Part shown: one piece after another, positions 218 through 13,894 of the stretch | Layout of the letters: each line of letters starts with the position of its first letter | Numbering within the stretch: the first letter of the stretch is position 1 | Origin: Clostridia bacterium | GTDB lineage: Bacteria > Bacillota > Clostridia > Christensenellales > Aristaeellaceae | Assembly: GCA_017550745.1 (NCBI GenBank) | Contig: JAFZOG010000084.1 | Span: 1 to 33,460 of the forward strand | Direction of reading: 5' to 3' | Length of the DNA stretch: 33,460 nucleotides | The notes under the pieces: model-generated | Told to the model about the DNA's origin: nothing | What the model saw: only the letters and a program-made list of their open reading frames with translations | Databases searched by the model: none | Translations under genes and position numbers: made by a program

Positions 218-1672
218 TTATTCTTCGATGACTTTATACAATTCATATCCGCTATTTTTCGTCTTGATAATGAATCTGTCGTCATCTGTCACGCTGATAT
301 TTGAGTAGTTCACAGGCAGGAGCGACTTGCCATACCAGGTAATGACATTGTAACCGCCGCTGAAGCTGCCGACCAGCAGGAATCCGCTGCCGCGGGACTT
401 TTTGACCGAGCACAGCTTGGAGCCTTCACGGCCGTCCGGGGAGAAGAACTGAGTTTTTGTAATCTTCCCGTTTACGACCGTGGCGTAAAGCGCGGCGCCG
501 TACATGCTGAGCTCCACTTCTTCGTTGTCCCATTCCACAGCCGGAAGCAGCGCTTTTGTCGCGACCTCGTAGAAGCAGGTCTCTTCATCCTTCACCACGC
601 AGATATAGCCGTGGCAATTGAAAGGATCAAGAGCGGTTTTGTTTTCATAGATCTCATCGTATACGCAGGGAAGGATCAGGTTTTTTTGAACACGGGAATA
701 CAGGCCCTTCTTTCCGTTCACGTTGCTGGTCAAAACGGCGTAATCCGTGTAAACGGCGGAAATCGTGACATTCCACATGGGAATGATGACTTCACCCTTT
801 GTAGAGAGCAAAGCGTTCCACTTTTTTCCCTGGAAATCTGTCCTGGCCGCGATCAATACCGTTTCTCCAGGAAGCTGAACCTCGCTCACCCCTGAGCATC
901 CGTCCAGCAGCATTTCGCCGGTCGCAAAGTTCATCAAAGACCAGTTTTTGATACCGAAGGGGCTGCTGTTAAGATTTTTTGCGCCGATATCCACCTGTTC
1001 ACCGGATGAATCGTACACAGTGACCTCATTTTCCCTGTTTTGGATGGACAGATAGTCGCCATGCGCTTTGGCGTTCTGAAATTCGTCCCGGGTCAGAGAG
1101 GCGACCAGGCGGCAGGATGATTTGCCGGCTACTGTGTTTCCATCATATTCGCGGTAGAAGATATCGCAGCGCTCGATCTGGAGATAATGCTCCTTATCCG
1201 GCGTATAGTCATGGTCCGCCTTCGTTCCGGGCACCAGCACCCACCCGGCGCACCAGGAAGGTGAGAATGCTTTTAACGTACCGTAAGCATACTCGGTAAG
1301 CACTGTGCCGTCAAAAGACATCAGCGCGTGGGAGTTGAGCTCATCCTGGGGGATGGGCAGATGCTCGTTATACGTTTTAACGGGAAAAGCGCCGACGTTC
1401 AGAAAGTTATACGCCACATAAGCTAAGCTCTCATGCTCAAAGGGAATGACAATGTTGGCGTCGGTGTCATACAGGCCCCATTTGAACTGATTCGGTTCCT
1501 GCGCTACAAGGAGATTGGTTCCGTTGATCGGCGTTAAATTTTCTATTCGCTTTAACAGCTGAACAGTCGATACGGAACCGCTGGTGTCTGCCGTTGCTGG
1601 CTGAAGCATACAGGTCAGCATCGCGCACAGCAAAAGCAGACATACAATGTGTATCTGCTTTTTATTCTTCAT
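218..1672 (-). CDS. Secreted WG-repeat protein (second paralogue)
   Basis: This 484-residue exported protein is built of WG (KWG-type) repeats, visible as KWGLYD near the N-terminus, KKGLYS in the middle and further degenerate units with 'VIP' or 'LPC' strands. The function of such proteins is generally unknown; the repeats form beta-rich modules. A signal peptide (MKNKKQ, a leucine-rich core, then a probable cut after ATA) lacks a lipobox. The start is the ATG at 1672, six codons inside a longer frame, because GGAGG sits just before it; the alternative GTG at 1690 has no such site. It follows its paralogue at 1687-3045 by 14 bases and ends at a terminator. The two share order and several motifs (GLY, LPCVY, HGYICV/HNGYVCV), so they look like a tandem duplication. 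Confidence 0.8.
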   Translation of the reverse strand: MKNKKQIHIVCLLLLCAMLTCMLQPATADTSGSVSTVQLLKRIENLTPINGTNLLVAQEPNQFKWGLYDTDANIVIPFEHESLAYVAYNFLNVGAFPVKTYNEHLPIPQDELNSHALMSFDGTVLTEYAYGTLKAFSPSWCAGWVLVPGTKADHDYTPDKEHYLQIERCDIFYREYDGNTVAGKSSCRLVASLTRDEFQNAKAHGDYLSIQNRENEVTVYDSSGEQVDIGAKNLNSSPFGIKNWSLMNFATGEMLLDGCSGVSEVQLPGETVLIAARTDFQGKKWNALLSTKGEVIIPMWNVTISAVYTDYAVLTSNVNGKKGLYSRVQKNLILPCVYDEIYENKTALDPFNCHGYICVVKDEETCFYEVATKALLPAVEWDNEEVELSMYGAALYATVVNGKITKTQFFSPDGREGSKLCSVKKSRGSGFLLVGSFSGGYNVITWYGKSLLPVNYSNISVTDDDRFIIKTKNSGYELYKVIEE

Positions 1673-1686
1673 GGCAGCCTCCGATT

Positions 1687-3045
1687 TCACCGGATGATCT
1701 GATCCATCTGCAGGCCTGTGCTGGTACGGATGATGGCGTTGGAATCATCGGTGACCGTGATCGGTTTGAAGTGGTACAGCGGCAGGATGATGTTGCCGTG
1801 CCAGTCGACCAGGCCGTAGGAAGTGCCCTTTTGGGCATCCAGCAGGTATCCGTTTCCGCGGGTGGCGACGATTACATCCGCATCCACGACGTTCACTTCG
1901 CCGTCCCCGGCAACGATCGACAGGTAACCTTCGATGCTGGTGAAGATCAGGGAGCAGCCGATGTTCGTCACCGCATGCTTGGAGTATTTCGGCGCGCAGC
2001 TCTCAACATCGTTTACGATGTCATAGAAGCCCAGCCGATCGTCCTTTTCCACGCACACGTAACCGTTATGCACGTATTTGTCGATATCGGTATTGCTGGA
2101 TAAGATGGAGGAGTAGACGCAGGGGACAACGAGGCGCTGTTCTTCCAGATCGTACAGGCCCCGCTGATTTTCCAGATCGGCCACGACAACATAACGGTTC
2201 GTAATGTCGATCAGCTGATATTCGGCAGGCAGAATAATGGAACCGTCGGGGCTGAGCAGGGCGGAGACTTTTAACCCATTCATGGCGACGCGATTGCCTC
2301 TGATCAGCATCCGGTCTGCCAGGTTGACTTCGGCCACCTCTGAATAACCGTCGTCCAGCGCTTTCTTCGTAATCAGGCTGACGATCTGGTATTTATCGAT
2401 TTTGTAGAGCGGCTTATTGGCGGCGTCCAAAGTCACATCCACAGGCTCGAAATGGCTGTCGTAAACGGAAACGGCTTTCTCGCGGTTGGTGATGGCGATG
2501 TAATCCCCGTGAATCGCTGCGTCGGCGTATGCTTCGCGTTCCAGGGTGGCGATGGGCTCAATGGTTTCGGTCTGCCCATCGGTCACATAGTACAGATCAA
2601 TGTTGGCATACTGATAATTCTTGGAGCCGATTTTGATGTCCTTGACGCTGTCTTCCACCGGTTCCGGATCAATGATGAAAGCGGCGACCCAGTGGTTGTT
2701 GAAGACCTTGAAGGCGCCGTAGATAGCATCGCCGACCTTGCGCCCGTCGCCGGTCCACAGCGCTCTGGCGTCAATGCTTTCTTTGTCGTTGTAAGCGGTG
2801 AAGAAGTTATTGGAAATGTAGTCCAGGAAAACGGTCGTGCAGGGAATGATCTCCTGGCCGGCGGTGTTGTACAGGCCGCGGGTATTGTCCTTTTTGGATT
2901 CAACGATCACGTAACTGGTGCCGGCAACCGTCTGGATGACAGGCATGTACTGGAAGACGGTGTTGAGCGTCACTTCGGCAGCAGCGCTTGTGATGAGCAG
3001 AACGGCAATCAGAACAGTACACAGGCATTTCAGCAGATGTTTCAT
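1687..3045 (-). CDS. Secreted WG-repeat protein (first paralogue)
   Basis: This 452-residue exported protein has WG-like repeats: TRGLYN near the start, QRGLYD in the middle and YGLVDWHGNIILP at the C-terminus. The signal peptide MKHLLKCLCTVLIAVLL ends at a probable signal peptidase I site (AAA-EV); there is no lipobox cysteine in a suitable place. The start is the ATG at 3045, preceded by AAGGAG; a longer frame would begin inside the promoter at 3081-3110. It is the first gene of a two-gene unit with the paralogue at 218-1672. Its molecular role is unknown. A cell-surface or envelope role is only an inference from export and repeat structure. Confidence 0.8.
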   Translation of the reverse strand: MKHLLKCLCTVLIAVLLITSAAAEVTLNTVFQYMPVIQTVAGTSYVIVESKKDNTRGLYNTAGQEIIPCTTVFLDYISNNFFTAYNDKESIDARALWTGDGRKVGDAIYGAFKVFNNHWVAAFIIDPEPVEDSVKDIKIGSKNYQYANIDLYYVTDGQTETIEPIATLEREAYADAAIHGDYIAITNREKAVSVYDSHFEPVDVTLDAANKPLYKIDKYQIVSLITKKALDDGYSEVAEVNLADRMLIRGNRVAMNGLKVSALLSPDGSIILPAEYQLIDITNRYVVVADLENQRGLYDLEEQRLVVPCVYSSILSSNTDIDKYVHNGYVCVEKDDRLGFYDIVNDVESCAPKYSKHAVTNIGCSLIFTSIEGYLSIVAGDGEVNVVDADVIVATRGNGYLLDAQKGTSYGLVDWHGNIILPLYHFKPITVTDDSNAIIRTSTGLQMDQIIR

Positions 3046-3080
3046 TTTTTTCTCCTTTCGATGCTCAAATGGTGATGGGA

Positions 3081-3110
3081 AGTATATCAATCTGGATTTC
3101 ATTCTGTCAT
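3081..3110 (-). promoter_or_regulatory. Promoter of the WG-repeat operon
   Basis: On the minus strand ATGACA (3105-3110) is separated by 18 bases from TATACT (3081-3086). It predicts a transcript starting about 30 bases before the ATG at 3045. This is a sequence match only. Confidence 0.55.
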
Positions 3111-3245: not shown

Positions 3246-3983
3246 TTATCGGGTGATGCCATGGTAAGTGCTTTGGGCTTTTTCGTAGCTTTCCAGATTG
3301 CCGATATCGTACCGGTTTCCGGGCATTTCCATGCTGTGCACCACGGTATGCCTGCACATCCAGGCGACCAGGGACCCCGGCGCGTCTGTGCCGCAGCCGT
3401 CTGCAATGGCCGCCTGAATGCAGGCGGCGTCCTGTTTTTTGTAGTAATAAAATGGCGGAGTGCACCAATGGGACTTGGGAACGGCAGGCTTTTCCTCCAA
3501 AGACAGCAGCCTGTCGTTTTCTCCCAGCTCTGCGACGCCGCTCTTTTGCAGGCGTTTTTCATCCGCCTCATAATAACGCATGACGCAGGATGTATCCTTT
3601 TCCACGGCATAGCGGATAAAGCGGGTCAGGCTGAAATCCAGCAGGTTATCTCCGGCGATGATCAAAAGGTCGTCGTCCAATTGCAGCCGGTCAATGGCAA
3701 ACTGGATATCGCATACCGCGCCGAGCCGGGTTTCGTTGGAACTGGTGCCGTCGTCCACAACAGTGACAGGCAGCCTGTTTGCTTCCGCCCACGCCTGAAA
3801 GTGGGGAGCAAATTTGTGGTTGGAGATCACCGCGTATTGATCCACAGCGCGCGAGGTGTCGATATCCTCCAGCAGCCAGTCCAGGATCGTTTTATCCCCG
3901 ACTTTTAACAGGGGCTTGGGGAAGTTTTCCGTCAGCGGATACAGCCGGGTAGCATAGCCAGCGGCCAGAATCAAACATTTCAT
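3246..3983 (-). CDS. Sugar-1-phosphate nucleotidylyltransferase
   Basis: This 245-residue enzyme is of the RmlA-like NTP_transferase family, which joins an NTP and a sugar-1-phosphate to give an NDP-sugar and pyrophosphate. The N-terminal nucleotide loop reads LAAGYATRLYPLT (residues 6-18), followed by FPKPLL with the conserved lysine at 23. AGDN (110-113) carries the metal-binding aspartate, and NRYDIGNLESY is the usual C-terminal family block. The ATG at 3983 overlaps the kinase stop codon (ATGA), so the two are translationally coupled; an in-frame extension to 4010 lies within the kinase gene. Because the preceding gene should make a sugar-1-phosphate, the simplest role is converting that product to a UDP-sugar, perhaps UDP-galacturonate. 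Substrate and nucleotide cannot be read from the sequence. Confidence 0.85.
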   Translation of the reverse strand: MKCLILAAGYATRLYPLTENFPKPLLKVGDKTILDWLLEDIDTSRAVDQYAVISNHKFAPHFQAWAEANRLPVTVVDDGTSSNETRLGAVCDIQFAIDRLQLDDDLLIIAGDNLLDFSLTRFIRYAVEKDTSCVMRYYEADEKRLQKSGVAELGENDRLLSLEEKPAVPKSHWCTPPFYYYKKQDAACIQAAIADGCGTDAPGSLVAWMCRHTVVHSMEMPGNRYDIGNLESYEKAQSTYHGITR

Positions 3984-5149
3984 ACCGTCACCCCATCCGC
4001 GCTGCGGCACATATGCACGCTGTATTTTCCGTTTAAATGGGGGAATGCGTTCAGGTATTCCCGGCTGACCTTTTCCACGATGCTTTCTTCATACTTTGGG
4101 TCGATCAGCGCCATACAGCAGCCCTTGAAGCCGGCGCCGGAGAAGCGCCCGCCGTAGATGCCTTCCGTATCGCGCATGATCTCATACAGCTTGATTTGTT
4201 CCGGCGCGCCTGATTCCCAGTTGTGGATGCTGCTCCAGCCGGATTCAAAGCTGAGGCGGCCGTATTCCTCAATGTCGCCGCGCCGCCAGGCTTCAGCCCC
4301 CGCTTCCACGCGCTTAAACTCCGTGTACCAATGCTCGCAGCGTTTGGCCCAGGATTCGGGCAGTCTGCTTTTATACTGCTGATAAGTATCCCAGGATACG
4401 TCCCGCGCCATGGCTTCGTTGAATTTGCCGTACGCATAGCCGGAAAAAGCCTGAAGCGCGTATACGCCCGCCCGCAGCTCATCCACACGCATGTTGTATT
4501 TGCTGCCGGCCAGGGAATGCTCCAGCCCCGAAAAGAAGATCGCGATTTTGTAGGGCTTCATCGCCGGGCTGGCGGGGATCAGCTGATAGCTGTTGTCCTT
4601 GCAGTCCAGATAAAGCAGATGATCCTTCCTGCTGAGCACTTCGCAGCTTTGGTCCAATGTTCCGACGTTCACACCCACGAAGTTTTTTTCCGCATCATAG
4701 GCGGTGTCGATGAGCTCCCGGGCAGAAAGGCAGATGCCATTGACCTTGCACAGCGCGTTGAGGAACGCCAGGATCACCGCGGCAGAACTGCTCAGGCCGC
4801 CGATGGGCAGGCTTCCTTCGATCACGCCGCAAAGCCCCACGTTCAAGGTGTGTTTTTTTTCCAGCGCCCAGGTGGCTCCGCGCAGATAATCCGCCCAGTC
4901 GCCCACTTTTTCACCGATTTCCCGGATGTGCCACTGAGCGCGTTTGGGGAACTGCAGGGAGGACATCTCAATGACGCCGTTGCGCTTTACATCATAGGCA
5001 ATGTGGATCCCCTGGTCAATGGCGAAGCCGGTGATCTTGCCCAGGTTGTGGTCGCTGTGAGCGCCGATGGGGCAGATGCGGTAAGGAGAAAAAGCAATGC
5101 TTTCCGGCTGCCGTTTATAGATATCAAAGAAAGCTTCTTCACAGCGCAC
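3980..5149 (-). CDS. GHMP sugar kinase, galacturonokinase-like
   Basis: This 389-residue kinase of the galactokinase branch of the GHMP family phosphorylates a sugar at C1 using ATP. The sugar-binding signature reads YRICPIGAHSDH (23-34). Galactokinases have GEHTDY here, and their glutamate contacts the C6 hydroxyl. The change to alanine (A30) and the flanking YRICP match plant galacturonokinases as I remember them, so galacturonate is the likely substrate. GGLSSSAAV (117-125) is the phosphate loop, TLDQS gives the catalytic aspartate D166, and GGRFSGAGFKGCC (333-345) is the third GHMP motif. Translation starts at GTG, with AGGAGG about 10 bases before it. The gene is 3 bases after the dehydrogenase and overlaps the nucleotidyltransferase by 4 bases. 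Galactokinase remains the alternative. Confidence 0.8.
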   Translation of the reverse strand: MRCEEAFFDIYKRQPESIAFSPYRICPIGAHSDHNLGKITGFAIDQGIHIAYDVKRNGVIEMSSLQFPKRAQWHIREIGEKVGDWADYLRGATWALEKKHTLNVGLCGVIEGSLPIGGLSSSAAVILAFLNALCKVNGICLSARELIDTAYDAEKNFVGVNVGTLDQSCEVLSRKDHLLYLDCKDNSYQLIPASPAMKPYKIAIFFSGLEHSLAGSKYNMRVDELRAGVYALQAFSGYAYGKFNEAMARDVSWDTYQQYKSRLPESWAKRCEHWYTEFKRVEAGAEAWRRGDIEEYGRLSFESGWSSIHNWESGAPEQIKLYEIMRDTEGIYGGRFSGAGFKGCCMALIDPKYEESIVEKVSREYLNAFPHLNGKYSVHMCRSADGVTV

Positions 5150-5152
5150 CGT

Positions 5153-6655
5153 TCAATCCCTCCTAAACAAATCGCGGGTGTATACCTTTTCCTGCACGTC
5201 GTCCAGCACCGGGTCATACCGGTTGGCGATGATGCATCCGCACATCTTTTTGAATTTTTTGATATCATTCACTACCTGGGAGCCAAAGAAGGAAGCCTCA
5301 TTTTCCAGCGTCGGTTCATAGATCACCACGACGGCGCCTTTGGACTTAATCCGCTTCATGATGCCCTGAATCGAAGACTGGCGGAAATTATCGCTGTTGG
5401 CTTTCATGGTGAGGCGGTAAACGCCCACCACGATTTCCTTTTGTTTTTGCTCCTGATCGTGGGAAAAAACGGCGCTGTTTCCGTAACTGCCCGCGATTTC
5501 CAGCACCCGGTCGGCGATATAATCCTTTCTGGTGCGGTTGGATTCCACGATGGCCTGGATCAGGTTCTGCGGCACGTCCATATAGTTGGCCAGCAGCTGC
5601 TTGGTATCCTTGGGCAGGCAGTAACCGCCATAGCCAAAGGAGGGATTGTTGTAGTAGTCGCCAACGCGGGGATCGAGGCATACGCCCTTGATGATCGGGG
5701 CGGTTTTCAAGCCCTTCACTTCGGCGTAGGTGTCCAGTTCATTAAAGTAGGAAACGCGCAGGGCAAGATACGTGTTCACAAACAGCTTGGTTGCCTCCGC
5801 TTCCGTGCAGCCCATGAACAGGGTTTCGATATTGGGCTTGACGGCGCCCTGCTGAAGAAGGGCGGCAAAGCACTCCGCCTGAGGCCGGGTCTGTTCATCG
5901 CAGCCAACGATGATACGGCTTGGATACAGGTTGTCGTACAGCGCCTTGGATTCCCGCAGAAATTCCGGGCTGAACAGGATGCTGCCGAAGCCGAGGGCTT
6001 CACGGATATGCGCCGTATATCCTACGGGAACGGTGGACTTGATCACGATCGCCGGCTTTTCCTTCCTGCCTTTCGCGCAGTCCAGCACCGACCTGATAAC
6101 GCTTTCCACGGCGGAACAGTCAAAGAAGTTCCGCTTGGGGTCGTAGTTTGTCGGCGCGGCGACCACCACGAAGTCAGCGTCCGCATAGGCGGAAGCGCCG
6201 TCTGTGGTGGCCTTCAGGTTCAGCGTGCGCGTGCCGTTTTTCGCTTCCTCAAGATACTTTTCAATATAATCATCCTGAATGGGGGAGACAAAGCGATTCA
6301 GCTTTTCCACCTTTTCGGGCAGGATGTCCACGGCGGTTACTTCATTATGCTGCGCCAGCAGCACGGCCAGCGATAAGCCCACGTAGCCGGTTCCGGCGAC
6401 GGCGATTTTGTATGGCCTGTCCGGCGTTTCCTTTTCACTGTCCGATGAAACAAAAACCTGGGACGGACTGAAATCCAGCACCTCGGACAGCGCCAGCAGC
6501 TGATCGACAGAAGGCATATAATCGCCCGTTTCCAGCCGGGACAGGACGGAACGGTTGATTCCGGTGGCCTGGCTGAGCCGCGCCTGGGTCATATTTTTCG
6601 CTTTCCTCTGGAAAGCCACTGTTTCGGCAAGAAAGGGCAAAGAGAGCTTCTTCAT
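5153..6655 (-). CDS. XRE helix-turn-helix fused to UDP-glucose 6-dehydrogenase-type enzyme
   Basis: This 500-residue fusion has two parts. Residues about 11-65 form an XRE/Cro DNA-binding domain ([29 protein letters not shown]). Residues about 82-500 form a complete nucleotide-sugar dehydrogenase: the NAD-binding GTGYVG at 88-93, the STVPVGYT block, the SPEFLRE block, and [10 protein letters not shown] with the catalytic cysteine at about 346. The family oxidises UDP-glucose or a related UDP-sugar to the uronic acid with 2 NAD+. The start is the ATG at 6655, with AGGGGA before it; the frame continues to 6703 without a site. It leads the operon with the kinase and nucleotidyltransferase. The promoter is perfect consensus and is overlapped by a palindrome (6710-6736), so autoregulation by the fused domain is likely. 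Substrate identity and DNA binding are inferred. Confidence 0.88.
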
Positions 6656-6709
6656 ATGTATTCCCCTTTGTATTCCGGGATAGAGAAAGCCTTTATTCAA
6701 CAAGATGAA

Positions 6710-6736
6710 ACACAGAAATTATACCAAATTATGTGT
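6710..6736. promoter_or_regulatory. Palindromic operator candidate at the dehydrogenase promoter
   Basis: This 27-bp imperfect inverted repeat has ends ACACA and TGTGT, with 9 of the 11 outer base pairs matched and a short unpaired centre. It covers the -10 box and the start site of the promoter at 6718-6746. Its size and placement suit a dimeric XRE repressor; the XRE domain encoded by the first gene is the obvious candidate. Confidence 0.5.
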
Positions 6737-6746
6737 TGCCTGTCAA
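6718..6746 (-). promoter_or_regulatory. Consensus sigma-A promoter of the UDP-uronate operon
   Basis: On the minus strand TTGACA (6741-6746), a 17-base spacer and TATAAT (6718-6723) match the consensus perfectly. The transcript should begin near 6711, giving a leader of about 56 bases to the ATG at 6655. Confidence 0.85.
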
Positions 6747-6782: not shown

Positions 6783-6810
6783 ATTGTTGCTGAATTGAAC
6801 ATTGTTGCTG
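6783..6810. repeat. Pair of 10-bp direct repeats
   Basis: ATTGTTGCTG occurs at 6783-6792 and 6801-6810, 18 bases apart, about 40 bases upstream of the -35 box of the dehydrogenase promoter. This could be a regulator site or chance. The rest of 6747-6886 shows nothing I can assign. Confidence 0.4.
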
Positions 6811-6886: not shown

Positions 6887-7693
6887 TCAATAAACTTTCC
6901 CCAGCAGGATTACACACACGACCAGCGCCGCCACGACGATGCACGCGATGAAATCCCGTTTTTCGCATTTCAGCACCCGCAGGCGGGTCCTGCCCTCGCC
7001 GCCGTGATAGCAGCGGGCCTCCATGGCCATGGCCAGGTCTCCGGCCCGGCGGAACGCGCTTACGAACAGCGGCACCAGCAGCGGCACCATGGCCTTGGCG
7101 CGGGCGATCAGATTGCCGGATTCAAAGTCCGCGCCGCGGGCGGTCTGGGCCTTCATGATTTTATCGGCCTCCTCCATCAGCGTGGGGATGAAACGCAGGG
7201 CAATGGACATCATCATCGCCATTTCATGGGCGGGGAAATGGATCACCCGCAGCGGGGAAAGCAGGCGTTCCAGGCCGTCCGTCAGGGCGATGGGCGGCGT
7301 GGTGAGCGTCAAAATGCTGGAAAACAGCACCAACAGAATCAGGCGCAGAGAATAATGGATCGAAAGCATCAGCGATTCCAGTTTGATCTGCGCAAAGCCC
7401 AGGTCCAGCAGCACAGTTTCTCCCTGCAGGAAAAACAGGTTCAGCACGAAGGTGAGGATCAGGATCAGGCGCAGGGGTTTCAGCCCCTTTGCCATCATTT
7501 TCACCGGCACTTTCGCCAGCTTTGCCACGATCACCAGGAACGCGGCCACCGGCACGAAGGCCAGCAGGTTTCCTGCCAGGAAAACAGCCACGATCACAGC
7601 GATCAGCAGCAGGATCTTCACGCGGGGATCCATCCGGTGCACCACGCTGTCGGCAGGGTAGTACTGGCCCAATGTGATATTATTCAGCGCCAT
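6887..7693 (-). CDS. ecfT: ECF transporter transmembrane component EcfT
   Basis: This 268-residue membrane protein of the CbiQ/EcfT family is the scaffold that couples the two EcfA ATPases to interchangeable substrate-binding S components for vitamins or metal ions. Several hydrophobic spans are visible (residues about 27-60, 72-92, 110-130 and the C-terminal ACIVVAALVVCVILL). The two cytoplasmic coupling motifs are QTARGAD and MEARCYHGG, each with the Ala-Arg pair that docks on the ATPases. Its start overlaps ecfA2 by 14 bases, so it is the last gene of ecfA1-ecfA2-ecfT. No S-component gene is present in the window, so the module probably serves S components encoded elsewhere (a group II system). 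Confidence 0.93.
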   Translation of the reverse strand: MALNNITLGQYYPADSVVHRMDPRVKILLLIAVIVAVFLAGNLLAFVPVAAFLVIVAKLAKVPVKMMAKGLKPLRLILILTFVLNLFFLQGETVLLDLGFAQIKLESLMLSIHYSLRLILLVLFSSILTLTTPPIALTDGLERLLSPLRVIHFPAHEMAMMMSIALRFIPTLMEEADKIMKAQTARGADFESGNLIARAKAMVPLLVPLFVSAFRRAGDLAMAMEARCYHGGEGRTRLRVLKCEKRDFIACIVVAALVVCVILLGKVY

Positions 7694-8549
7694 GGCGTTT
7701 CCCCTCCTTCCACAGGGCCAGCAGGGCGGAAAGCGCCTGTTCCTCCCGGAAAACGTCTTCGGGACAGGGGATGCCCATTTCCCGCAGCTTCATCATCAGC
7801 TTGCACACGGAGGGCACATCCAGGCCCATACCTTCCAGGCGTTCCGCATGGCGGAAAATGATCTCAGGCGCGCCTTCCATCACAATTGTTCCGTGCTCCA
7901 TCACCACGGCGCGGGTGGCAAAGCGGGCCACATCATCCATGGAATGGGAAATCATCACGACGGTGGTTCCCTGCTGGTGCAGCCCGGCAATCAATTGCAG
8001 CATATCTTCCCGGCTTTGCGGATCGAGACCGGCGGCAGGCTCATCCAGCACCAGGACCCGGGGACGCATGGCCAGCACCCCTGCCATGGCGACGCGGCGC
8101 ATCTGGCCGCCGGACAGCTCAAAGGGGGATTTTTCCGCGATGCCCGGCTCGTCCAGCCCTACCTTGCGCAGCGCCTCCTGTACCCGCTCGGCGATTTCCG
8201 CGTCTCCCAGGCCCAGGTTTTTGGGGCCGAAGCCAACGTCCTTTGCGACTGTCTCTTCAAATAATTGGTGTTCCGGATATTGGAAAACCAGCCCTACGAT
8301 CTTTCGTACTTCTTTTTTATCAAAGCCCTTCTGGTGAATGTCCTGCCCGTCCAGCAGCACCCGGCCGGACGTGGGCTTCAGCAGCCCGTTGATATGCTGG
8401 GCCAGTGTGGACTTGCCGGATCCGGTATGGCCGATCAGCGCCAGAAATTCCCCCTCCCGGACGGCCATGCTGACATCCCGGATGGCGGTTGCCTGGAAGG
8501 GGCTGCCGGGCTGGTAGGTATGGGTCACATGCTCCAGGATCACTTGCAC
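7680..8549 (-). CDS. ecfA2: ECF transporter ATPase EcfA2
   Basis: This 289-residue ABC ATPase has Walker A GHTGSGKST (40-48), a Q-loop in VFQYPEHQLFEETV, the signature LSGGQMRRV, and Walker B VLVLDEPAAGLDP. The Q-loop sequence YPEHQLFEET is typical of EcfA2 rather than EcfA1 (which has NPDNQ). It pairs with EcfA1 to power EcfT-based uptake at the cytoplasmic face. It overlaps ecfA1 by 10 bases upstream and ecfT by 14 bases downstream, which implies coupled translation. Confidence 0.93.
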   Translation of the reverse strand: MQVILEHVTHTYQPGSPFQATAIRDVSMAVREGEFLALIGHTGSGKSTLAQHINGLLKPTSGRVLLDGQDIHQKGFDKKEVRKIVGLVFQYPEHQLFEETVAKDVGFGPKNLGLGDAEIAERVQEALRKVGLDEPGIAEKSPFELSGGQMRRVAMAGVLAMRPRVLVLDEPAAGLDPQSREDMLQLIAGLHQQGTTVVMISHSMDDVARFATRAVVMEHGTIVMEGAPEIIFRHAERLEGMGLDVPSVCKLMMKLREMGIPCPEDVFREEQALSALLALWKEGKRHGAE

Positions 8550-9376
8550 AGCCGAGCCACCTCCTCCGCCATTTCATCCACCGTCAGGATGCCTTCTTTC
8601 AGCGGCATCCCCTGGCTGCGGAGCTGTTCCGCCAGCCGCGCCATGGGCGGCGCGTCCAGCCGGTAAGGGCGGATGCGCTCCATATCGGAAAAAATGTCCC
8701 TGGGGGTGCCGGAAAGCACGATCTTTCCTTTATACATCACATGCGCCTTGTCGCAGGCTACGGCTTCCTCCATAAAATGCGTGATCCACAGCACGGTAAT
8801 GCCCTGGTCCCTGTTCAGCCGCTTTACTGCCTGCAGCACTTCCCGCCGCCCCTGGGGGTCCAGCATGGCGGTGGATTCGTCAAAAATGATTGCTTCAGGG
8901 GCCATGGCCAGCACGCCTGCAATGGCGACGCGCTGCTTCTGCCCGCCGGACAAAAGGTGCGGCGCCCGGTCGGCATAGGCCAGCATGCCCACGTCTTTCA
9001 GCGCTTTTTCGATGCGCTCCGGCATTTCGGCGGTAGGTACGCCGATATTCTCAAGGCCGAAGGCCACGTCTTCGCGCACGACGGTCGCCACCAGCTGGTT
9101 ATCCGGGTTCTGGAACACCATCCCTGCCCGGCGGCGGATCTCCCAGGTATTTGCGTCGTCCTGCGTGTCCATGCCGCAGACCGTCACGCGCCCCTCCGAG
9201 GGCAGATACAGCCCGTTGATCAGCTTTGCCAGCGTGCTTTTGCCGGACCCGTTTTGCCCTAAAATGGCATGGAAGGAGCCGCGCTCAATGCTTAGCGATA
9301 CGTCCTGCACCGCCATTTTGCCGCCGTCCTCATAAGCGAAAGATACGTGATCCACCGCGATGATTGGTTCTGCCAT
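8540..9376 (-). CDS. ecfA1: ECF transporter ATPase EcfA1
   Basis: This 278-residue ABC ATPase has Walker A GQNGSGKST (40-48), Q-loop FQNPDNQLVATVV (88-100), signature LSGGQKQRV (142-150), Walker B IIFDE (163-167) and switch histidine in ITH. The NPDNQ form identifies EcfA1. It is the first gene of the three-gene energising module and has its own extended -10 promoter. In many Bacillota these genes sit in a ribosomal-protein cluster (after rplQ); here they stand alone between the UDP-uronate operon and a tRNA. Confidence 0.93.
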   Translation of the reverse strand: MAEPIIAVDHVSFAYEDGGKMAVQDVSLSIERGSFHAILGQNGSGKSTLAKLINGLYLPSEGRVTVCGMDTQDDANTWEIRRRAGMVFQNPDNQLVATVVREDVAFGLENIGVPTAEMPERIEKALKDVGMLAYADRAPHLLSGGQKQRVAIAGVLAMAPEAIIFDESTAMLDPQGRREVLQAVKRLNRDQGITVLWITHFMEEAVACDKAHVMYKGKIVLSGTPRDIFSDMERIRPYRLDAPPMARLAEQLRSQGMPLKEGILTVDEMAEEVARLCK

Positions 9377-9820: not shown

Positions 9821-9988
9821 CAGGCTGTCGAAAAAGTTTTCGACAGCCTGCGAATGAAAGCGGAATCAGGATTCCTCTTTCATTCGATGCATCCATTTCC
9901 TGCAAAAACGGGTTTTCGTCCTCCAAAGGAGGCCAAAAACCCTATTTTTGCGGCCGGAAATGGATATAGGAAGCAACATTCTGTTGCT
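9821..9988. repeat. Chain of four inverted repeats behind the tRNA
   Basis: Four palindromes follow one another. At 9821-9850 there are 14-bp perfect arms (CAGGCTGTCGAAAA and its complement, 2-base loop). At 9851-9886 there are 10-bp arms (CGAATGAAAG and CTTTCATTCG) plus inner GAAT/ATTC. At 9891-9965 a 75-base imperfect hairpin starts ATCCATTTCC and ends GGAAATGGAT, with further pairing of its A/T-rich and GGAGG/CCTCC blocks. At 9972-9988 the arms are AGCAACA and TGTTGCT. There is no supported gene in 9782-10131. Confidence 0.75.
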
Positions 9989-10131: not shown

Positions 10132-11202
10132 TTATTTTTTCCCTTTCAGCCAGGAGGGAAGGCTGGCTTTCTTTCCGCGGCTGGAAAGCACGATGCTTTG
10201 CAGCAGGATGAAGAAGCACAGCATCGCACCGGTGGTGATGCTTTGCCACCAGGGGTCGCGCAGGCCGGAGGTGACCACGATGGATTTGATGGTGGTCAGG
10301 GTCAGCACGCCGAAGAAGGTGCCGATGATGTTGCCTACGCCGCCGGTCAGCAGCGTGCCGCCGATGATGGAGGAGGCGATGGCGTTCATTTCGGCGCCCG
10401 CCGCGTTGGTGGCGTTGCCCGCGCCGGTGTGCATCATGAACACAAAGCCCGCCAGGCCCGCCAGTACGCCGCTGATGACGTGGGCGATAAACCGGGTGCG
10501 GCGCACGTTCACGCCCAGCATCAAAGCGCTCTGGCTGTTTCCGCCCAGGGCGTAGAAGTTCCGGCCCAGTTTGGTTTTGCGCAGCATGATCAGGACAATC
10601 AGCACGACCGCCAGCGCTACGACCACGCCGATTTCCATCCGGGCGGGGATCAGGTTGCCGTTCTTAGCGGTATAGCCCAGCCAGGGGATTTCGATCTTTG
10701 TGTTCATCAGCTGCTTGAAGCCTTCATGGGCCACCTTCTGGGGCTCCACGCTGACGATGGTGATCATGCCCCGGGCAAAGAACATACCGGCCAGGGAAAT
10801 GATGAAGGGCTGGATCTCCAGGTAAGCGATCAGATACCCCTGCACCAGACCGAAGGCGAGGCCGATCCCCAGGGAAATGAGGATCGCTGTGAAGATGCTG
10901 CCGCCTCCGTTCAGATGCACTACGCCCACCATGACCACCAGCGCCGTCACGCCGCCGACGGAGATGTCAATGCCTCCGCTGATCATCACGATGGTCAGGC
11001 CGCAGGCCACGATCAGCAGCGCGGCGTTGTCGTTGAGCAGGTCAAAAATCTTCTGGGGCCGCAGAAAGCCGCCGCCCCAAATGAGCATGGCCGCGCCGTA
11101 CATGGCAAAGAAGATGCAGATGGTGATGGTGAGCAGCAATTGCGTGTCCGTTAAAGGCTCACGGCGGCGGTTTTTCTGCCGCAGATCGGGTGTACTTGTC
11201 AT
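10132..11202 (-). CDS. Sugar ABC transporter permease, YjfF/RbsC type
   Basis: This 356-residue inner-membrane permease belongs to the BPD_transp_2 (RbsC-like) family. About eight to ten hydrophobic spans are visible, and the family block MISGGIDISVGGVTALV (near residue 73) is intact. GGNSQSALMLGVNVRRTRFIAHVISGVLAGLAG is split over the coupling region, and IASSIIGGTLLTGGVGNIIGTFFG follows. The gene order (binding protein, double ATPase, two permeases) is that of the E. coli YtfQ-YtfR-YtfT-YjfF system for galactofuranose, and this gene is in the YjfF place. Its ATG overlaps the preceding permease stop (ATGA). The substrate is not provable; a furanose or pentose sugar is likely. Confidence 0.85.
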   Translation of the reverse strand: MTSTPDLRQKNRRREPLTDTQLLLTITICIFFAMYGAAMLIWGGGFLRPQKIFDLLNDNAALLIVACGLTIVMISGGIDISVGGVTALVVMVGVVHLNGGGSIFTAILISLGIGLAFGLVQGYLIAYLEIQPFIISLAGMFFARGMITIVSVEPQKVAHEGFKQLMNTKIEIPWLGYTAKNGNLIPARMEIGVVVALAVVLIVLIMLRKTKLGRNFYALGGNSQSALMLGVNVRRTRFIAHVISGVLAGLAGFVFMMHTGAGNATNAAGAEMNAIASSIIGGTLLTGGVGNIIGTFFGVLTLTTIKSIVVTSGLRDPWWQSITTGAMLCFFILLQSIVLSSRGKKASLPSWLKGKK

Positions 11203-12278
11203 ACCGCCATCTCCTTTCCGGCCCGGCCGGGTTTATTGGTCAGCCGCTTCCACAGACCGCTCACCGCCTGCTTGACCACGGGAGAGCCCAGCGCCACGAT
11301 CAGGATGATCACAATGGCTTTATACGCCTTGATGTTGGTGGAGGGCACCTTCATGGCGTAGAGCGTGATGGTCAGCGCCTGGATCGCGTAAGCGCCCAGG
11401 ATGGATCCCAGCATGCGGAACTTGCCGCCGCCCAGGGAGTTGCCGCCGATGGCCACTGCCAGGATGGCGTCCATTTCGATGTCCAGCAGCAGGGTTTCGT
11501 GGTTGATCAGGCTCAGCCTGCTCACGCCGATCACGCCGGACACGGAGCAGCAGACGCCCAACAGGATGAATGCCAGCAGCTTCATGCCCACCGCGTTGAT
11601 GCCGTTCAGCCGGGCCGCGCCCTGGTTGATGCCTACGGTCTGGATATACAGGCCCAGCGTGGTGAATCGGAACAGCAGCGCGAACAGGATGCCCATGACC
11701 AGTACGATCAGGATGGGCGTTGGCACCGGGACGCCGGGAATAAAGCTGCCGATGGCGGTAATGATGGGGCTGTCAACGGTGGGCGTCGCGCCGCCGTTGA
11801 TCCAGTAGGCGATGGAACGCCCGCAGGTGTAAAGGATCAGAGTGGCGATCATGGGCTGGATATGGAAGACGGACACCAGCGTGCCGTTGAACGCGCCGAA
11901 ACACATGGCGACGGCGCAGCAGGCAAGAAAGCCCAGGATCACGGTCAGGGGCGTTATCCCGGCCCCGGCGCGCAGAACCTTGACGAACATGCTGCCCGCG
12001 ATGGCGCCCAGCGCGCCGACGGAAATATCCTGGCCTCCGGACGCGGCGGTGACCAGCGTCATGCCCATAGCCAGGATCACAAGCTCGGACGCGCCGTTCA
12101 GAATGCTGATCAGGTTGCCCCGCAGCACGGGGTCGCCGTTATTGTTGGCGGCCAGCTCCACCGAAAAGAAGCTGGGGTCACGGATCAGGTTGAACACCAC
12201 CAGCGCCAGGAGGGCGAGCAGCGGCATAAGCAGCTGGGAAAAACCGCTTCCCGCTTTTTTCTTGAATTCGGTTGCCAT
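11199..12278 (-). CDS. Sugar ABC transporter permease, YtfT/RbsC type
   Basis: This 359-residue multi-span permease carries the family block AASGGQDISVGALGAIAGSMF and the second block GGNSLGGGKFRMLGSILGAYAIQAL. It is the first of two permeases, which probably form a heterodimer in the membrane. The start ATG at 12278 lies one base after the ATPase stop and is preceded by GGAGGAGG inside the ATPase 3' end. It overlaps the second permease by 4 bases. The long hydrophilic loop with GATPTVDSPIITAIGSFIPG is typical of YtfT-like members. Confidence 0.85.
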   Translation of the reverse strand: MATEFKKKAGSGFSQLLMPLLALLALVVFNLIRDPSFFSVELAANNNGDPVLRGNLISILNGASELVILAMGMTLVTAASGGQDISVGALGAIAGSMFVKVLRAGAGITPLTVILGFLACCAVAMCFGAFNGTLVSVFHIQPMIATLILYTCGRSIAYWINGGATPTVDSPIITAIGSFIPGVPVPTPILIVLVMGILFALLFRFTTLGLYIQTVGINQGAARLNGINAVGMKLLAFILLGVCCSVSGVIGVSRLSLINHETLLLDIEMDAILAVAIGGNSLGGGKFRMLGSILGAYAIQALTITLYAMKVPSTNIKAYKAIVIILIVALGSPVVKQAVSGLWKRLTNKPGRAGKEMAV

Positions 12279-12279
12279 A

Positions 12280-13785
12280 TCAGTTTCCTCCTCCCGCGAT
12301 GGTATACATCACGTGGTCCTGCGTCAGCTCGTCTCCTGTCAGTTCCCCCACGATGTTCCTGTCGCGCATCACGATCAGGCGGGAGCATGTGCGCAGCATC
12401 TCTTCGATCTCGGAGGAAATGAAGGTGACGCTCATCCCCTCCTCGGCCAGACGCAGCACCAGGCGCTGGATTTCCGTCTTGGTGCCCACGTCGATGCCGC
12501 GGGTCGGCTCGTCCAGGATCAGATACTGCGGATGGGTGAGCAGCCAGCGGGCCAGGATCACCTTCTGCTGGTTGCCGCCTGACAGGGATTTAATGGGCGT
12601 ATCGGAAGATGCGGTTTTGATTTCCAGGGCTTTGATATATTTGTCCGCAAACGCTTCGGCCTCCGCCCGGGAGAAAGGATGGAAGAAGCCTTTCATCACC
12701 TGCAGGGCCAGGATGATGTTCTCCCGCACGGACAGGTCGGCGATGATGCCGTCCCGCTTCCGGTCTTCAGGCAGATACCCGATGCCGTTTTTCATGGCGT
12801 CAAAGGGCTTGGTGATTTTCACCGGCTTGCCGCCTACCCGTACCTCGCCGCCGGTGACGCGGTCCGCCCCGAAAATAGCCCGTACGCTTTCGCTGCGTCC
12901 GGATCCCAGCAGGCCGGTAAAGCCGTTGACCTCTCCCTTGGCGATGTTGAAATCGAAGGGGCGGCTGGCGGTGCTGGACAGGCCGTGGGCCTGATACAGC
13001 GTTTCCGCTTTGCCGTTTTCGCTGACGCCGCTTTTCTTGATCACGTTCAGCCCTTCCAGCTCCTTGCCCATCATCTTGGCCACCAGCTCCACCTGGGGCA
13101 GCTTTTCCACTTCGTATTCGCCCACCAGCTCCCCGTTGCGCAGCACGGTGATGCGGTCGCTCACCTCATAGACCTGCTCCAGGAAGTGGGTGACGAAGAT
13201 GATGCCGACGCCCCGGGCTTTCAGGTCCCGCATGAGCCTGAACAGCATCTCCACTTCCTTGTCGTCCAGGGAGGACGTGGGCTCGTCCAGGATCAGCACC
13301 TTGCAGTCAATGTCAACAGCCCTTGCGATAGCGACCATCTGCTGCACCGCCAGCGAGCAGCTGCCCAGCTGCTGCTTGGGCCGGGCGGGAATGCCCAGGC
13401 TGTCCAGCAGCTTTCCGGCCTTTTCTGTCATTTCATTCCATTTTACGGTGACGCCTTTTCCTCTGCCGATGTACATATTTTCCGCCACCGTCAGGTTCGG
13501 GCACAGGGTGATTTCCTGATACACCGTGCTGATGCCGTAGCTTTGCGCTTCCTGGGGCGAACGGATATGGATGGCGTCCTGAACGCCTTCAATATAAATT
13601 TCACCGCCGTCCTTGGGATAAACGCCGGTCAGCACCTTGATCAGCGTGGATTTTCCCGCGCCGTTTTCACCCATCAGCGCGTGGATTTCCCCTTTGCGCA
13701 GGGTAAAATCAACATTTTGCAGGGCGCGCACGCCTGGAAAAACCTTATCGATATGCCGCATGGATAAAACGATTCCGTTCTCCAT
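12280..13785 (-). CDS. Sugar ABC transporter ATP-binding protein, YtfR/RbsA type
   Basis: This 501-residue protein has two ABC domains in tandem. The first has Walker A GENGAGKST (39-47), signature LAVQQMVAIARA and Walker B VLILDEPTSSLD. The second has the degenerate Walker A GLLGSGRSES usual in this family, then LSGGNQQKVILARWL and YLILDEPTRGIDVG. It energises uptake by the two downstream permeases. The start is the ATG at 13785 with GAGGAGG eight bases before it; the frame extends to 13890 only through the upstream hairpin. A terminator-like hairpin lies between the binding-protein gene and this one. Confidence 0.92.
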   Translation of the reverse strand: MENGIVLSMRHIDKVFPGVRALQNVDFTLRKGEIHALMGENGAGKSTLIKVLTGVYPKDGGEIYIEGVQDAIHIRSPQEAQSYGISTVYQEITLCPNLTVAENMYIGRGKGVTVKWNEMTEKAGKLLDSLGIPARPKQQLGSCSLAVQQMVAIARAVDIDCKVLILDEPTSSLDDKEVEMLFRLMRDLKARGVGIIFVTHFLEQVYEVSDRITVLRNGELVGEYEVEKLPQVELVAKMMGKELEGLNVIKKSGVSENGKAETLYQAHGLSSTASRPFDFNIAKGEVNGFTGLLGSGRSESVRAIFGADRVTGGEVRVGGKPVKITKPFDAMKNGIGYLPEDRKRDGIIADLSVRENIILALQVMKGFFHPFSRAEAEAFADKYIKALEIKTASSDTPIKSLSGGNQQKVILARWLLTHPQYLILDEPTRGIDVGTKTEIQRLVLRLAEEGMSVTFISSEIEEMLRTCSRLIVMRDRNIVGELTGDELTQDHVMYTIAGGGN

Positions 13786-13844
13786 CCGTTCATCCTCCTC
13801 TTCAGGAAGGGCTCCTGTCATTGTAATATCTTTATGCCTCAATG

Positions 13845-13894
13845 AGAAAAACGCGGTGTGGACCGCGGAATGTTTCCACTCCTTCCACACCGCG
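13845..13894 (-). terminator. Intercistronic hairpin after the sugar-binding protein
   Basis: Ten-base arms CGCGGTGTGG (13852-13861) and CCACACCGCG (13885-13894) are followed on the minus strand by TTTTT. It probably terminates part of the transcription so that the binding protein is made in excess over the ATPase and permeases. Confidence 0.65.

Follow-up and report, generated by a model that had tools for sequence, protein, structure and literature searches.

PutA and BirA are enzyme-repressors, in which an active enzyme and a DNA-binding repressor of its own genes share one chain. The DNA-binding domain is a ribbon-helix-helix in PutA and a winged helix-turn-helix (HTH) in BirA. The family described here, in which an XRE HTH precedes a UDP-glucose 6-dehydrogenase (UGDH), has the same proposed layout, an enzyme and a repressor of its own genes in one chain, with another enzyme and another DNA-binding domain. 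BzdR joins an XRE domain to a shikimate kinase fold whose activity was lost, and Q1 is a synthetic bifunctional chimera which, unlike the inactive Q2, does not respond to inducers in vivo (PMC3602430). The fused proteins share with BzdR and Q1 an N-terminal XRE domain, a linker and a C-terminal enzyme fold, but while the enzyme of BzdR is dead and Q1 is man-made, they are natural and their catalytic residues are kept in 99 of 99 cases. The titles and abstracts that we searched hold no description of a UDP-glucose or nucleotide sugar dehydrogenase fused to an HTH or XRE domain.

The window, i.e. the whole stretch of 33,460 nucleotides analyzed here, contains the HTH_3 and UDPG_MGDP_dh domains in a single uninterrupted frame (6655 to 5153; Table 1). 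The N-terminal, central and C-terminal dehydrogenase domains lie within residues 83-488 and all exceed their Pfam cut-offs; the motifs GTGYVG and GGYCLPKD occupy residues 88-93 and 343-350, respectively. A first-pass annotation of this DNA had claimed an intact dehydrogenase fused to an XRE HTH, with the ATG and a ribosome binding site placed ahead of the HTH, and this description is correct on each point: one frame of 500 aa, domains above cut-off, both motifs, and the start signals at the expected place.

Table 1. Features of the fused gene, its product and its surroundings, in window coordinates.
Feature	Position	Strand	Remarks
Nucleotidyltransferase, sugar-1-phosphate type	3246..4010	-	overlaps the kinase gene; probable operon partner
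GHMP kinase, galactokinase type	3980..5149	-	three bases after the stop codon of the fused gene; probable operon partner
Fused gene, XRE helix-turn-helix + UDP-glucose 6-dehydrogenase	5153..6655	-	500 aa; ATG 6655; stop 5153-5155
Dehydrogenase part, residues 83-500	5156..6409	-	UDPG_MGDP_dh N, central and C domains (Pfam)
Linker, residues 67-82	6410..6457	-	sequence poorly conserved, length nearly constant
HTH_3 domain, residues 17-65	6461..6607	-	Pfam E 1.6e-12, 47.7 bits (cut-off 23)
Recognition helix region, residues 34-42 (N34 R35 S36 V37 L38 S39 R40 L41 E42)	6530..6556	-	R35 in 76/76; residue 36 covaries with operator base 4
Likely ribosome binding site AAAGGGGAA	6661..6669	-	read from the sequence, just before ATG 6655
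Promoter TTGACA (6746-6741), 17 nt, TATAAT (6723-6718)	6718..6746	-	12/12 consensus bases, sigma-70-type
Near-perfect half-site GGCAACA (minus strand)	6734..6740		directly after the -35 box
Degenerate operator TGTTCAATTCAGCAACA (minus strand)	6785..6801		11/14 consensus positions, one perfect half-site
Second perfect half-site AGCAACA (minus strand)	6803..6809		18 bp from the first, at 6785

The search for proteins with both domains, which the annotation had suggested, was successful. The best 80 of 486 confirmed relatives were kept, a choice by score which favours full-length matches, and 75 of these 80 loci align from residue 1 of the window protein. Together with the window they form the first set (n = 76), in which L059, with a gap in the HTH, and L054, with a divergent HTH, were retained. 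The five remaining loci are L067, cut by a contig end; L053 and L062, which have the HTH and each an operator, yet enter no count; and L060 and L064, which are without the HTH. The gene seen as L060, L120 and L178 comes from one genus-mate (G531); in it the starting residues MKKLSL remain, most of the HTH is gone, and the dehydrogenase follows directly. A further set comprises 23 additional fused genes. Genes were dropped only when their upstream region was the same as an earlier one over 150 bp, and some of the 23 are perhaps close relatives of first-set members; L120 and L178 were set aside, and L108 offers just 30 bp of upstream DNA.

The full-length fusion is also present on plasmids of Butyrivibrio fibrisolvens, Enterococcus faecalis and E. 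hirae (three records). These copies are annotated only as nucleotide sugar dehydrogenase, so that the regulator is hidden in plain sight. In all three (L200, L201 and L202, respectively) oppositely oriented polysaccharide or capsule-type genes adjoin the fused gene. In a family sample of 200 genomes, the matches listed include 28 fused genes of full length, spread over 26 genomes, and many close unfused genes as well. For 398 genomes of the phylum, the only listed match that runs from residue 1 is the window's own; the fusion thus looks like a minority form there, and a phylum-wide spread is rejected. On a FastTree tree of 139 scored rows the state, fused or unfused, changes at least 5 times.

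In the dehydrogenase part T169, E231, E235, K290, N294, C346 and D350 are identical in the 99 fused proteins. We take their catalytic roles to be those of the S. pyogenes enzyme. The GxGxxG motif and these Cys, Lys, Asn, Asp, Thr and Glu residues place all 99 in the UDP-glucose/GDP-mannose dehydrogenase family. The closest PDB matches are two enzymes of the short type, Klebsiella Ugd (3phl, 3plr) and S. pyogenes UGDH (1dli); they begin at residue 82-83 and correspond to residues 82-500 in sequence and fold, with the catalytic-type residues kept. Unlike the fused proteins, these two enzymes are without a DNA-binding domain. The best NCBIfam match is the Ugd equivalog PRK15057, at 516 bits and below its cut-off of 757; the subfamily model TIGR03026 is passed (299 bits for a cut-off of 189.8). 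The C-terminal part is most likely an active UDP-glucose 6-dehydrogenase.

The HTH has the features of an XRE regulator, i.e. an HTH_3 match above cut-off and a conserved recognition helix: R17, K18, Q24, G32, R35, E42, P48, Q52, L60 and F62 are conserved in 73-76 of the 76 proteins of the first set, and R35, in the recognition helix, in all of them. The closest solved sequence is the P22 C2 repressor (2r1j, E 1.4e-4), whose Val33, presumably a base-contacting residue, aligns with residue 36 of the fused HTH. This repressor of the XRE/Cro-CI type has a related HTH and, as in the fused family, a palindromic operator; the fused family differs from it by the junction to a metabolic enzyme, by a 17-bp TGTYRYT-N3-ARYRACA operator, and by its probable role, mainly that of an autoregulator with a single target. 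In the predicted structure the HTH is well defined (pLDDT block means of 90-96 over residues 11-60; helices at 24-31 and 35-42) and the dehydrogenase part is poor (overall mean pLDDT 73.6, pTM 0.54). The linker spans 28-31 residues between L60 and G88 in 89 of the 99 proteins, and this almost constant length would keep the HTH near the NAD-binding domain. It looks as if the HTH has been retained for DNA binding.

We then compared the DNA upstream of the fused genes, a check proposed in the first-pass annotation, and this revealed a 17-bp palindrome specific to them. The pattern TGTYRYT-N3-ARYRACA was read by eye off the first set, and a site was scored when at least 12 of its 14 consensus positions and at least 5 of its 7 palindromic pairs were present within 400 bp upstream. 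For the first set such an operator is found in 63 of 76 upstream regions, against 1.44 in Markov shuffles; with at least 13 consensus positions the values are 55 against 0.22, and for perfect sites 32 against 0.0. The further fused genes, which played no part in deriving the pattern, have it in 21 of 23 cases (shuffle expectation 0.4), the plasmid copies in 3 of 3. Overall 84 of the 99 fused genes possess an operator at threshold, while the window and its nearest relative, L009, are among the 15 without. Conversely none of 40 unfused UGDH homologues (60-74% identity) has an operator (shuffle expectation 0.4), even when the search is widened to about 700 bp, and L060 and L064 have no site in the 500 bp upstream of the match. 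A palindromic operator at the controlled promoter, as expected of an XRE regulator, is thus found for the family and reduced to half-sites, below threshold, in the window itself.

Two side observations concern these upstream regions. At L154 (G557:C14:41000-45158) two UDP-glucose dehydrogenase genes are adjacent on the same strand, one fused and one unfused, and the unfused one is without an operator at threshold. Some fused proteins with Gly39 have, by eye, a variant palindrome of the type TTCTGTT-N3-AACAGAA upstream (L069, L051, L078), others with Gly39 do not; this variant is possibly a second specificity class.

Base 4 of the operator is either T or C. To relate the operator bases to the protein we used 90 of the 99 loci, leaving out nine without usable half-sites. 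Among 500 protein columns, residue 36 is the most informative for base 4 and residue 34 the second. Single linkage at 80% puts 80 of the 90 sequences in one cluster and is useless as a control for phylogeny; average linkage was used instead, and with permutation within the resulting clusters of related dehydrogenase domains residues 36 and 34 remain first and second at three cuts. Loci with G36 have C in all 15 cases and those with T36 in 8 of 11, as does the single locus with P36; T accompanies A36 in 11 of 12 loci and S36 in 43 of 51. A test on independent pairs of the tree, for which the residue groups were chosen after these counts had been seen, supports 7 pairs; on average 5.5 of them agree in direction, 0.2 run the opposite way and 1.4 show no difference (median p 0.0625). 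Between nearest pairs, base 4 differs in 7 of 13 with a different residue 36 versus 5 of 32 with the same residue. The covariation with the helix is less clear for bases 5 and 6 than for base 4: for base 5, residues 38, 36 and 37 hold ranks 1, 3 and 4, the second being a column outside the HTH, and for base 6 other columns rank above the recognition helix.

Perfect sites are concentrated at the fused gene, which argues for a mainly local autoregulator: 44 of the 46 found in 867 kb around 75 loci fall within 400 bp upstream of it. Thirteen whole genomes, picked in part for their good operators, contain 33 perfect sites versus 16 with a reversed control pattern; 21 of the 33 are at the fused gene (by coordinates and strings), and among the 12 genomes that have a perfect site, 7 have them nowhere else. 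The other 12, a number near the control count, may be chance occurrences or further targets.

A good promoter was recognised in 82 of the 99 loci. Relative to the inferred transcription start, 58 sites lie after it, 49 of them with centres between +21 and +40, and 80 lie before it, 53 of them with centres between -115 and -50. This placement around the promoter corresponds to a repressor layout. A proximal and a distal operator coexist in 44 of the 99 loci only, 94-163 bp apart in 37 of these 44. Their helical phasing (R 0.38 at 10.5 bp, p 0.0015 for unique gaps versus random gaps; best period 10.75) is only a hint, because shared ancestry remains in the statistic.

For the window copy the situation is less favourable. 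No full palindrome at threshold occurs upstream of its fused gene, nor in L009. With a position weight matrix run over the 33 kb the window operator scores 9.2 bits, second to a 14.4-bit site at 3433-3449 within the nucleotidyltransferase gene. No full-strength operator was found in the window. Across its whole genome, with up to 3 mismatches allowed, the pattern has 58 sites and the reversed control 53, close to equal. The heptamer AGCAACA occurs four times in the 33 kb, for a chance mean of 3.63, and two copies stand 18 bp apart at 6785 and 6803; it is their placement, not their total, that is notable. At 9972-9988, in a stretch after what by eye resembles a tRNA-Leu gene, AGCAACA-TTC-TGTTGCT presents the operator half-sites in inverted (outward) order.

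The genus-mates L009 and G547 have TTCAGCAACA where the window has the degenerate TGTTCAATTCAGCAACA. In L009, the closest relative, AGCAACA replaces the GGCAACA which follows the -35 box, and G547 combines a distal TGTCGTTTTCAGCAACA with a perfect proximal site. Alignment of upstream DNA within the genus is poor (mean column identity 46%) except at two places, the common TTCAGCAACA and the half-site that follows the -35 box. The window appears to belong to a branch with an eroding or changing operator. Since its operator has decayed to half-sites, control of this copy may be weaker or altered, which lowers confidence for the window copy more than for the family. The first-pass annotation had named 6710-6746 as the DNA to be tried in a gel shift: the half-site at 6734-6740 does fall inside, but the best candidate is the DNA of 6785-6809, and 6746 is the first base of the promoter.

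The two probable operon partners of the fused gene are a sugar kinase and a nucleotidyltransferase (Table 1). In many relatives an SDR epimerase/dehydratase of about 360 aa is found near the fused gene: its neighbour cluster has 42 members, 29 of which are the next gene on the same strand, and the three scanned members match this superfamily. We infer that this neighbour is a UDP-uronate epimerase. At L010 the fused gene is followed, in this order, by a protein of kinase length, a nucleotidyltransferase and an epimerase. Such operons would make UDP-uronic acids by de novo synthesis and by salvage together. After the operon, at 218-3102 of the window, two proteins follow in tandem (490 and 471 aa), of which the first has a WG repeat match below threshold; neither has a family above cut-off, and they cluster together and, among the neighbours compared, only with two L009 proteins. 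Elsewhere in the window, at 6887-9376 and 10132-13890, the neighbours are ordinary, namely an ECF transporter module with two ATPases and a CbiQ-type protein, and a sugar ABC transporter that has two permeases.

Taken at the level of the family, these observations make it highly probable that the fused protein is bifunctional, a DNA-binding autoregulator and an active enzyme, with or without ligand gating. The C-terminal enzyme would convert UDP-glucose and 2 NAD+ into UDP-glucuronate, supplying UDP-uronic acids for surface polysaccharide. UGDHs of the short type are dimers, thus each enzyme dimer could hold one palindrome: the XRE domain, as a dimer, would bind the 17-bp site in the promoter of its own operon. 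The proximal operator would typically sit just downstream of the transcription start, with a second copy further up in the 44 loci with two operators. Binding would block or loop the promoter, resulting in negative autoregulation of this operon alone. This mode of action, perhaps with looping, is likely from the operator positions; physical binding, repression rather than activation, looping and ligand gating are what we infer for the protein. The own ligands of the enzyme, UDP-glucose, NAD(H) and UDP-glucuronate, may gate the binding, and a sensing of the NAD or UDP-sugar state is plausible. Two elements of a PutA-type protein, an active enzyme controlling its own genes by ligand, are supported, by the catalytic residues and by the operator. 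The earlier proposal of a DNA-binding enzyme controlling its operon like PutA finds strong comparative support in the family, through the fused-specific palindrome, the covariation and the place of the sites around the promoter, and is weakened for the window by its degenerate operator.

Other explanations were weighed against this reading. The draft genome to which the window belongs is fragmented (186 contigs, 88.78% complete), and an assembly or frameshift error might join two genes. The first-pass annotation had raised a frameshift, or an absence of the fusion in close relatives, as objections, and neither holds: 75 of the 80 kept loci and three plasmid records carry the full fusion, with a near-equal linker length, in independent assemblies, isolates and complete plasmids. 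An artefact is thus ruled out for all practical purposes. After the precedent of BzdR, an XRE domain on an inactive shikimate kinase fold (PMC3602430), the dehydrogenase could be just a ligand-binding domain, a dead-enzyme sensor. Judged from the residues kept in 99 of 99 proteins, however, the loss of catalytic activity that marks the BzdR-like class has not occurred; in addition, the two other dehydrogenase matches in the window's genome (88.78% complete) are just 26-30% identical to the fused protein, so that the fused gene is the only close copy found there. A dead enzyme is in our view very unlikely. We give as little credit to a different XRE regulator binding the operator in trans, the fused HTH having another target or none. 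Other XRE proteins do exist, with 33 HTH_3 matches in the host genome, but the operator stands before 21 of 23 fused genes and before none of 40 unfused homologues, the two relatives without HTH are also without site, and residues 36 and 34 of the fused HTH itself are the best predictors of operator base 4.

A more serious alternative is a sub-case of the bifunctional reading, namely an autoregulator without metabolite sensing, in which the dehydrogenase merely supplies the dimer and the level of the enzyme is set irrespective of ligand. All the DNA-binding evidence fits it equally well, and the linker sequence is poorly conserved. Against it, the linker of 28-31 residues in 89 of 99 proteins places the HTH near the NAD-binding domain, and UDP-glucose dehydrogenases change conformation upon ligand binding. 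We estimate its probability to be somewhat short of one half. The fullest form of the bifunctional reading has an even chance of being right: a lineage of natural, active UDP-glucose dehydrogenases would have captured an XRE domain and evolved a dedicated operator whose bases change together with the recognition helix, and would read its own pool of substrate, cofactor or product to gate one polysaccharide-precursor operon, in many members via a two-operator loop.

UDP-glucuronate commits carbon to capsules and exopolysaccharides, and it is at this step that the fused proteins would act. The set assembled here holds natural enzymes with an added DNA-binding domain, their unfused sister enzymes and relatives without the HTH, which makes the evolution from enzyme to transcription factor directly testable. 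It also offers a ready set of protein-operator pairs with changed specificity. If the proposal is true, this lineage would be the living counterpart of the enzyme-to-regulator intermediate that was artificially built for BzdR.
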